From: Natronomonas salsuginis
GTDB taxonomy: Archaea > Halobacteriota > Halobacteria > Halobacteriales > Haloarculaceae
Direction: 5' to 3'
NCBI RefSeq assembly: GCF_005239135.1
Contig: NZ_QKNX01000009.1
Coordinates: 1 to 64,000 of the forward strand
DNA: 64,000 nucleotides
Shown: positions 23,085 through 25,695 of the stretch, piece by piece
Layout: the number at the start of each line of letters is the position of its first letter
Position numbering within the stretch: the stretch's first letter is position 1
Notes under the pieces: model-generated
What the model saw: the letters and a program-made list of their open reading frames with translations, nothing else
What the model was told of the DNA's origin: nothing
Database searches by the model: none
Made by a program: the position numbers and the translations under genes

Positions 23085-23795
23085 ATGATCGATCTCGATC
23101 TCGATATGCGGCAATACGACTGCCCGTTCATCGACACCACCGACGAGGTCGACGTGAGCTTTTCGGCGATGCAGTGGCATTTGGACACGAACCGCCGACA
23201 GCTCGAGACTCGATTGCTCGTCGAGGCGGACTCGCGAGCCGCACTCGACAACGGGCTCGACCAACTGTGCGACCACCGAAACATGGCCGACTGCGAAACG
23301 CTACAAAAGCAGGGCGGGGTCGCGACGATCCGGACGCTCATTGAACAGACCGACGCGATGGGCGTCGTCAAGGATCACGACGGCTACATCACGGGCCCGT
23401 TCAAGATCGAGGACGGCACGGAGATGTGGCACGTCGGCTTCGACGACGAGACGACCGCCGACCGGGCGCTCTCAGAACTCGACGACGGCAACGACGTGGT
23501 CGTCGAAGGGCGCACCGATCTGTCGATCACGGAGCTGTTCGACGTCATCGAGAACGCCGGGCCGGCCCACCGGTTCTTGGACAGTTGTCGGAAGCTGACC
23601 GACACCGAGCGAACCACGCTCGTGACGGCCGCTGAGGCGGGCTACTTCGAGACCCCCCGTGCGGTGTCGCTCGACGACCTCGCCGCGGAGTTCGACGTCT
23701 CGAAGACCGCCGTCTCGATGAACCTCCGGCGCGCCGAGCGAAAACTGGTCGATTCGACGGTCGATTCGATGTCATCGATTCAGGGCATCGAGTAG
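23085..23795 (+). CDS. Bat-like HTH-10 family DNA-binding regulator
   Basis: A 236-residue haloarchaeal regulator. The C-terminal HTH-10 (bacterio-opsin activator) domain spans about residues 170-225: LTDTERTTLVTAAEAGYFET, then SLDDLAAEFDVSKTAVSMNL. The N-terminal part is a small-molecule sensing domain of the type usually fused to Bat HTH domains (MDADSRAAL-like pattern at EADSRAALDNGLDQL). It is probably cytoplasmic. Its neighbours, a histidine kinase and DHQ synthase, give no clear target. Confidence 0.85.
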   Translation: MIDLDLDMRQYDCPFIDTTDEVDVSFSAMQWHLDTNRRQLETRLLVEADSRAALDNGLDQLCDHRNMADCETLQKQGGVATIRTLIEQTDAMGVVKDHDGYITGPFKIEDGTEMWHVGFDDETTADRALSELDDGNDVVVEGRTDLSITELFDVIENAGPAHRFLDSCRKLTDTERTTLVTAAEAGYFETPRAVSLDDLAAEFDVSKTAVSMNLRRAERKLVDSTVDSMSSIQGIE

Positions 23796-23809: not shown

Positions 23810-24487
23810 TCAGCGAGCGTTCCGAAATTCGATCCGGACGCCGCCGTCGCGTCCCTCGGTCGCCGAGACGCGCCACCGGTGCGCCGCGGCGATCTGTTCG
23901 ACGATCGCGAGCCCAAGCCCCGTCGCGCCGTCGGTCGTCGAAACACCCGGCTCGAAGAGGTCGTCGTATCCCCCCACATCGGGTCCGTCGCCGTCGTCCT
24001 CGACGTAGAAGCCGTCGTCGAGGTCGCCGACCGTCACGGCCACTGACGCACCGCCGTGCTCGACCGCGTTCCGGTAGACGTTCCGAAACGCCGCGACGAG
24101 GCGTCCGCGGTCTGCCCTGACAGTCGCCGCCGTCTCGATTTCGAGCGACGCATCCACGGTGTCGACGCTCGCCCACGTCTCCGACGCCACGTCGGCGATA
24201 TCGATGGGTTCGGTTTCCTCGACGGGGGTGCCCTGCGCTTCGAGCGTCCCGAGATCGGCGAGATACGCCTCCAGGCGATCGAGCGAGACCGCCACCTGCT
24301 CGAGCAGCTCGTCTTCGTCCTCGGCATCGCCCGAGCGGACGAAATCGAGGTAGCCCTGCGCGACGTTGAGCGGGGTCCGGAGATCGTGCGAGACGACGCT
24401 TCGGTACGTTTCGAGCCGGTCGTGGCGGCGTTCGAGCCGCCAGTCGGCTTCGGTTTCGTCGTCGCCATCGGCGTGCGCGCGTCCCAT
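23810..24487 (-). CDS. sensor histidine kinase (no visible input domain)
   Basis: A 225-residue minimal kinase. The phospho-acceptor box is VVSHDLRTPLNVAQGYL (H34), the N box is FRNVYRNAVEHGG (around N140), and the nucleotide-lid motifs are VEDDGDGPD and TGLGLAIVEQ. It lacks PAS, GAF or membrane segments if started at 24487; a longer frame reaches 24640 but its residues look random. It is divergent from a CheF-REC fusion 150 bases away, which makes that protein a good candidate phosphorylation partner (inference). It is convergent with the Bat-like gene. Confidence 0.85.
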   Translation of the reverse strand: MGRAHADGDDETEADWRLERRHDRLETYRSVVSHDLRTPLNVAQGYLDFVRSGDAEDEDELLEQVAVSLDRLEAYLADLGTLEAQGTPVEETEPIDIADVASETWASVDTVDASLEIETAATVRADRGRLVAAFRNVYRNAVEHGGASVAVTVGDLDDGFYVEDDGDGPDVGGYDDLFEPGVSTTDGATGLGLAIVEQIAAAHRWRVSATEGRDGGVRIEFRNAR

Positions 24488-24639
24488 CACCCCGCGGTAC
24501 CCGTCCGCGTCGTGAATAGGTTCGGGACGTTTCACCCACCGAGTCGCGGTAAGCCGCTGGAACAGTGTAAGAGGCGACGTCGAATCGCGCGTACATGCAC
24601 TAATACTTATCTTACTCCCGTTCATCCGTCCGGACACCA

Positions 24640-25695
24640 ATGCCGACTCGAGTCGTCTGCGATTTCACCGCTGACGTGACGCTCGACGGGGTGGGTTCGG
24701 ACGACCCGCGCACTATGCGGGTTCTCGTGGGGGACGACCGGATCGTACTCGGAGCCGACGACGTGAAGCGAACGATCGATCTCGACGACGTGTTCGACGT
24801 CGTCCGGGACGTCTCGCGCGGGGCAACGCCGAACGCCGACGAAACAGTCTCCATCGCCATCCGGACGGGCGAGGCGACCGAAGTCGCCTCGATCAGCGCC
24901 CGCGCCGACGAACTCGTTCGCTTTCAGGGTGCGCTGTACCGACAGGCGCTCGGAGGCACGCTGTGCGTCATCGAACACGAATCCGGCGACGACGCCGTGG
25001 ATCTGCCGACTCACCGCTTTCGTCTGGGCGTGACCGCCTCGCGAATCCGGTTCGTCGACAAGAACGACCCGGAGACCGAACTCACGATCGCTCGCGATCG
25101 AATCCTCGAATTTCGAGCGCTCTCTGGAACCGACGACGACCGACGACCGGCTGTTCTGCTCGTTTCCGATGGCGATGACGGGCTGGCGAAGACGGTCGTC
25201 CGGCTGCCTTCCTCGCGCCATCTCAATCTGTTCGGCCGGTATCTGAAGTCCGAACTCCGGCTGTCCGGGTCCCCCACCGACTCGCACGAGCGGTCCGAGT
25301 CGATCGACCTGCTGCTCGTCGACGACGATCCGCAGGACCTCCACGCCGCGGAGATGTTCCTGAAACGGCGTCCAGAGCCGTTCTCGATCGAGATGGCTGC
25401 CGGGGGTGAGGCCGGGCTCGAACACCTCGAAACCGACGACGCGATCGACTGTGTCGTGAGCGACTTTCGGATGCCCGGTATGGACGGCATCGAGTTCCTG
25501 CGGGCGGTCCGGGACCGACACCCGAAGCTGCCGTTCATCCTCTACACCGGGAAGGGGAGCGAGGAGGTTGCCAAGCGCGCGATCCTCGACGACGTGACCG
25601 ACTACGTCGAAAAGGACGTCGGCACCGACCAGTACGACGTGCTGGCCGAGCGGATCGACAAGGCGATCCGACAGCCGACCGGTCGTCGCCGGTGA
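24640..25695 (+). CDS. CheF-like domain fused to a response regulator receiver domain
   Basis: A 351-residue protein with two parts. Residues 1-208 resemble the archaeal chemotaxis protein CheF (VVCDFTADV, RVLVGDDRIVLGADDVKRTI, DDVFDVVRDV, and SRHLNLFGRYLKSEL). Residues 221-345 form a REC domain with acidic pocket D228-D230, phospho-acceptor D275 in SDFRMPGMDG, T303 and K325. Known CheF proteins end in a winged helix and link phosphorylated CheY to the archaellum motor; here a receiver domain takes that place. The divergent histidine kinase may phosphorylate it. No other chemotaxis or archaellum gene is in the window. Confidence 0.75.
   Translation: MPTRVVCDFTADVTLDGVGSDDPRTMRVLVGDDRIVLGADDVKRTIDLDDVFDVVRDVSRGATPNADETVSIAIRTGEATEVASISARADELVRFQGALYRQALGGTLCVIEHESGDDAVDLPTHRFRLGVTASRIRFVDKNDPETELTIARDRILEFRALSGTDDDRRPAVLLVSDGDDGLAKTVVRLPSSRHLNLFGRYLKSELRLSGSPTDSHERSESIDLLLVDDDPQDLHAAEMFLKRRPEPFSIEMAAGGEAGLEHLETDDAIDCVVSDFRMPGMDGIEFLRAVRDRHPKLPFILYTGKGSEEVAKRAILDDVTDYVEKDVGTDQYDVLAERIDKAIRQPTGRRR

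Follow-up and report, generated by a model that had tools for sequence, protein, structure and literature searches.

What would a CheF protein do with a receiver domain of its own? The question is raised by one gene in a 64,000-nt stretch of the Natronomonas salsuginis genome (contig NZ_QKNX01000009.1, referred to as the window herein). The initial annotation read its product as CheF at residues 1-208 followed by a complete REC domain at 221-345, facing a histidine kinase without an input domain about 150 bases away on the opposite strand, and proposed that the two form a self-contained phospho-relay that feeds the archaellum or another target without CheY. Pfam places CheF-arch (PF04283) at residues 6-206 with 73.5 bits against a cut-off of 25 (E 2.7e-20), covering profile positions 2-216 of 218, and Response_reg (PF00072) at residues 225-331 with 72.6 bits against a cut-off of 30.2 (E 3.7e-20). 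Both predicted domains are therefore where they had been placed, and other fusions among those described below also exceed the PF04283 cut-off. The coordinates of the features are collected in Table 1.

Table 1. Features of the CheF-REC locus in the window, with related genes at other loci
Feature	Location	Strand	Basis or remark
CheF-REC fusion gene	24640..25695	+	351 aa; ORF, Pfam CheF-arch + Response_reg, 17 homologues
CheF head, residues 1-209	24640..25266	+	PF04283 at residues 6-206; AF2; best PDB match 7ovp
Low-confidence linker, residues 210-220, where canonical CheF has its C-terminal tail domain	25267..25299	+	pLDDT
Receiver domain, residues 221-345	25300..25674	+	Pfam, alignment, REC fold
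Divergent partner histidine kinase, HisKA + HATPase	23810..24490	-	226 aa; Pfam, alignment, tree
Intergenic region between kinase and CheF-REC	24491..24639		149 bp; divergent layout also in L034, L035, L037, L038, L039, L082
Bat-like HTH_10 regulator (HVO_2525_N domain)	23085..23795	+	convergent with kinase gene, ends 15 bp apart
Extra CheF paralogues of G141/G142	L077 7925-8785		+
	L079 7028-7888		+
	L075 7356-8234		+
	L078 6699-7571		-
CheF head with degenerate receiver	L076 6870-7877 (G141:C1 about 382869-383876)	-	no Pfam match for the receiver

The full-length AlphaFold model, built on a 15-row alignment, consists of two PH domains and a REC fold with a mean pLDDT of 81.7, falling below 50 in the linker at residues 210-219. 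Each PH domain comprises seven strands and a helix (strands within 5-88 and helix 89-104; strands within 107-188 and helix 192-203), and no part of the head is better conserved than the last, short helix at 192-203. Modelled alone, the head reached a pLDDT of 87.7 and a pTM of 0.85. Among solved structures, residues 1-212 match CheF 7ovp best (E 3.0e-7, TMq 0.65, rmsd 5.3), and hence the N-terminus is CheF-like by fold as well as by profile; the mismatch that would have refuted the initial annotation did not occur. All five receiver residues are intact in the window protein, namely D275, T303 and K325, which the initial annotation had located correctly, and the acidic pair D228/D229. These residues align with those of a normal hybrid-kinase receiver and are kept across the 14 aligned CheF-REC members. 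Both halves are under purifying selection, with dN/dS of 0.12-0.37 for CheF and 0.09-0.22 for REC. Since 17 homologues share the identical two-domain order and dN/dS lies at 0.09-0.37 in both halves, the layout is not a product of chance. These data establish the domain content of the protein, its intact receiver and the selection acting on it.

The two PH domains are shared, by profile and fold, with CheF of the PF04283 family (OE2402F and OE2404R of Halobacterium salinarum, PhCheF 7ovp, and MmCheF). In ordinary CheF, according to PMC9126983, dimerisation and CheY-P binding belong to the C-terminal tail, and the PH part is proposed to rest on ArlCDE, through a docking surface described there as unproven. 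The CheF1 and CheF2 proteins of the same genome run on for ∼75 to 80 residues where CheF-REC has its linker, and the tail domain is absent from CheF-REC, which has a linker and then the receiver instead. CheF-REC thus lacks the known CheY-P site and the dimer strand. That the tail region is replaced had been anticipated, and the alignment with CheF1 and CheF2 bears this out. Its description as a winged helix is less secure, as the accessible text of PMC9126983 gives helices α5-7, strand β16 and helix α8 and does not use that term, although the tails of CheF1 and CheF2 look compatible with one.

The head has also moved away from canonical CheF in sequence. On average it shares 27% of its residues with CheF2 and 16% with CheF1, the motif HPAxxGGxV, invariant in canonical haloarchaeal CheF, is mostly lost, and ∼10 of the 29 canonically conserved columns are kept by most CheF-REC proteins. 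What the motif contributes to may be the tail, docking or stability. Given the low identity and the loss of most of the motif, the docking surface may have changed.

In all, our searches recovered 17 CheF-REC proteins, from Natronomonas, from other Haloarculaceae and from Halorubrum. A search of 146 Haloarculaceae genomes gave nine full-length fusions. Because the full protein mostly retrieves generic receivers, a profile of the CheF head alone was then run against 392 genomes of the order, which contributed G306, G255, G157 (two copies) and G205. Named genomes were scanned as well, some of them judged to be the same as numbered ones so that the two sets overlap, and the fusion is present in Natronomonas sp. 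LN261, N. aquatica, a Natronomonas MAG, Halorubrum kocurii, H. yunnanense and Halorubrum sp. Atlit-26R, and split into two ORFs in the uncultured archaeon A07HR67 (L094). Across the 392 genomes, fusions score at least 208 bits with the head profile and every other CheF at most 145. Weak CheF matches in G117, G118 and G131 (20-23 bits) fell below the cut-off; the G131 protein, by eye an acidic DHH/OB-like repair-type protein, was judged a chance match. Separately, L076 encodes a protein whose CheF head precedes a heavily degraded receiver, with Ser in place of the phospho-Asp. The protein lies on a very long branch outside the CheF-REC clade and is perhaps a second or decayed fusion. Genomes G141 and G142 also carry extra CheF paralogues apart from their main che cluster, which we liken to the extra Haloarcula copies noted in 2009.

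In the CheF-head tree the 17 fusions form one group (SH-aLRT 100) on a long basal branch of 1.1 changes per column, adjoining CheF2-type proteins with weaker support (82-92); by tree and synteny, the OE2404R-type CheF2 branch is the nearest CheF. The same 17 form one group in the receiver tree (100/100), which sampled CheB and not CheY, and lie there among hybrid-kinase receivers. Derivation from CheB was rejected, CheB being far away in that tree. The window receiver is 51% identical to a receiver of its own genome (G000:C1:831336). Because the same 17 group together in both trees, a single fusion origin is established, and the sequences indicate an old joining of a CheF2-type (OE2404R-like) PH pair to a hybrid-kinase-type receiver. 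The receiver falls among those of haloarchaeal REC-PAS-GAF(-HisKA) response regulators; unlike in those proteins, it is C-terminal, behind the CheF head. In some genomes (set f6), a CheF2-type gene lies directly upstream of a REC gene on the same strand (L066, L069, L071 and L073; also L062, L067 and L070), the latter encoding REC-PAS-GAF in L071. We conjecture that this arrangement could be a precursor layout of the fusion.

The genes around CheF-REC in the window encode DHQS II, an HTH_10 regulator, the kinase and an AMP-ligase, and the che cluster is on another contig. The HTH_10 regulator is not kept beside other CheF-REC modules, and the G142 homologue lies ∼4 kb from the CheF-REC gene of that genome. 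Contig 1 of the same genome carries CheB, CheA, CheR, a HEAT-repeat protein and CheF1, with CheF2 and an ArlJ-like T2SSF protein on the opposite strand; cheY was not found in the che stretch read there. This order resembles that of Halobacterium salinarum, in which OE2401F (HEAT), OE2402F and OE2404R lie between the che and flagellin genes (PMC2666748), and from synteny CheF1 would be of the OE2402F type and CheF2 of the OE2404R type. FlaCE is bound by each of the two halobacterial CheF proteins, and FlaD by OE2404R as well (PMC2666748). Among the CheF-REC loci examined, none has the gene inside a che/arl cluster.

The sole neighbor common to the Natronomonas-type CheF-REC loci is the kinase. 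In the window it has HisKA at residues 32-80 and HATPase at 127-223 and no further Pfam domain, hence no input domain, and it lies 149 bp from CheF-REC on the opposite strand, as initially described. Its SHDLRTPL, DDGDG and GLGLA motifs are kept in the alignment, and the intactness of the kinase motifs is established. The gene starts at GTG 24490 or ATG 24487, with its stop side at 23810. A start at TTG 24640 is disfavored because the MG start lines up with the relatives' kinases, where MG precedes a receiver that the window kinase lacks. The divergent neighbor kinase of six relatives, of which five are Natronomonas-type genomes and the sixth is Halorubrum G306, has 365 to 372 residues and an N-terminal receiver that is catalytically dead (DD to GI, D to A, T to V and K to R) yet under purifying selection (dN/dS 0.23-0.32). 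Among the orthologous loci with a divergent kinase, only the window has a bare one. We considered whether the pseudo-receiver was duplicated from the receiver of CheF-REC, which is unsupported, as the two form separate clades in the receiver tree. The window kinase, basal in its clade, may be ancestrally bare or may have lost its pseudo-receiver; the degenerate receiver on the G255 neighbor, a kinase with its catalytic part unplaced in the tree, gives a hint of loss.

The window kinase, which is basal, and the six pseudo-receiver kinases form one clade (97/94), so that a kinase of a single clade accompanies CheF-REC in seven genomes; this co-inheritance is established. The kinase tree branches nearly as the CheF-REC tree does. 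In both trees the copy from Halorubrum G306 is nested within those of Natronomonas, which suggests that kinase and CheF-REC were transferred jointly. Their pairing as a dedicated two-component system is well supported by these comparisons. A dedicated neighbor kinase is common and not universal. The tail-to-tail neighbor in G142 and G082 is a 7TM-PAS-GAF kinase, the divergent kinase of G255 combines its degenerate receiver with PAS/GAF domains, and no kinase gene is found beside CheF-REC in G049 or in most Halorubrum members (both G157 copies, G205 and H. kocurii). Most Halorubrum members and A07HR67 (L084, L086, L091 and L094) hold CheF-REC in a stable, kinase-free spot between MutS-like and UvrA-like genes, names that we gave by reading the sequences. 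The proposal of a self-contained pair accordingly fails in several relatives, those without a kinase gene alongside. "Phospho-relay" was too strong, because a single kinase with a single receiver amounts to an ordinary two-component pair, and where the kinase has a receiver of its own it is dead: we found no active receiver on the window kinase, and the pseudo-receivers elsewhere are degenerate.

Co-occurrence links the fusion to chemotaxis and motility. CheA, canonical CheF and ArlD/E accompany it in each of the nine Haloarculaceae carriers, and canonical CheF does so in each of the four Haloferacaceae carriers surveyed. Within Natronomonas, CheF-REC is present in six of eight CheA-positive and none of 12 CheA-negative genomes (Fisher p 7e-4, kinship ignored), or in five of six against none of six among genomes at least 94% complete (p 0.008, kinship ignored). 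The co-occurrence with che/arl genes is established but confounded by phylogeny, and since Fisher tests ignore shared ancestry, we take it as support and not proof. ArlD/E-like genes also occur apart from che genes, and several CheA-negative Natronomonas have them.

The reading that we prefer, to which we give about an even chance, is that CheF-REC is a two-component response regulator with the paired-PH head of CheF as a motor-docking output. Our confidence goes no higher because HPAxxGGxV is mostly lost and only ∼10 of 29 conserved columns are kept. The neighbor kinase, or an unlinked kinase in relatives without one, would phosphorylate D275, and the receiver would be coupled to the PH head through helix 192-203 and the flexible linker. 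Once the receiver is phosphorylated, the head would be seated differently on the cytoplasmic side of ArlCDE, the archaellum switch, or be recruited there differently, and would thereby bias rotation or reversal. This input would act in parallel with CheA/CheY, because the receiver replaces the CheY-P-binding, dimerising tail of ordinary CheF. We infer the phosphotransfer, the ArlCDE binding and the effect on rotation; an archaellum output would follow from homology and the strict co-occurrence with che/arl genes and is weakened by the loss of the HPAxxGG motif. As proposed for CheF-REC, a receiver acts at the motor switch in CheY-P/FliM and CheY-P/CheF switching, where it diffuses rather than being covalently joined to a would-be motor adaptor.

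The main rivals to a motor-docking response regulator are that the head brakes the motor or that it has been re-targeted. As a phospho-controlled brake or competitor, the tail-less head would fill ArlCDE sites and block CheF/CheY-P, so that the effect of the kinase would be to dampen switching or taxis instead of bringing switching about. The missing CheY-P-binding, dimerising tail fits such a role, as does the constant presence of an intact canonical CheF alongside CheF-REC in the genomes checked. In Haloferax volcanii, PMC9126983 reports that CheF without its 83-aa tail still reaches the motor pole and yields partial, fewer reversals, an observation that also speaks for the docking head of our preferred reading, as does the binding of FlaCE by the halobacterial CheF proteins. 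We nevertheless regard a brake as rather unlikely, for it requires the same docking surface, which is partly diverged in CheF-REC. This very divergence, visible in the long basal branch and the lost canonical residues, favors a PH head re-targeted to another ArlD/E-like or pilus motor protein, or to a signaling protein, within an ordinary two-component system outside archaellum switching. The lack of linkage to che/arl genes and the existence of ArlD/E-like genes separate from che genes point the same way. We judge re-targeting improbable, as no surveyed CheF-REC genome lacks canonical CheF and CheF-REC is absent from every CheA-negative Natronomonas, including those with ArlD/E-like genes. 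Strict co-occurrence with CheA could instead mean that the receiver is a phosphate sink or adaptation element, taking phosphate from CheA or CheY-P traffic, with the neighbor kinase incidental. The HisKA kinase is co-inherited with the receiver, and the receiver is of the hybrid-kinase type, far from that of CheB in a tree without CheY, which makes a sink very unlikely.

Both halves of CheF-REC belong to known families. CheF does not appear among the receiver partners in Tables 2 and 3 of a 2018 census of archaeal two-component proteins (PMC5847659), and our search of the open full-text literature found no report of a CheF-REC-type fusion. Since a putative motor-docking part is fused to a receiver next to its own kinase, the locus suggests a private signaling line that reaches the motor alongside ordinary chemotaxis. 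More tentatively, and with somewhat less than even confidence, these single-origin, receiver-bearing motor adaptors and their dedicated kinases may constitute a CheY-independent archaellum input through which non-chemotactic signals set rotation bias directly, the kinase being gated by a dead receiver in most Natronomonas members. For the way in which CheF acts on the archaellum switch, the fusion separates the proposed docking role from the CheY-P role, because it retains the two PH domains, is without the CheY-P tail and bears its own receiver. If CheF-REC docks, the residues that it shares with canonical CheF would help to delimit the docking surface; if the motor is switched by it, archaea would possess a second wire into the motor that bypasses CheA/CheY.
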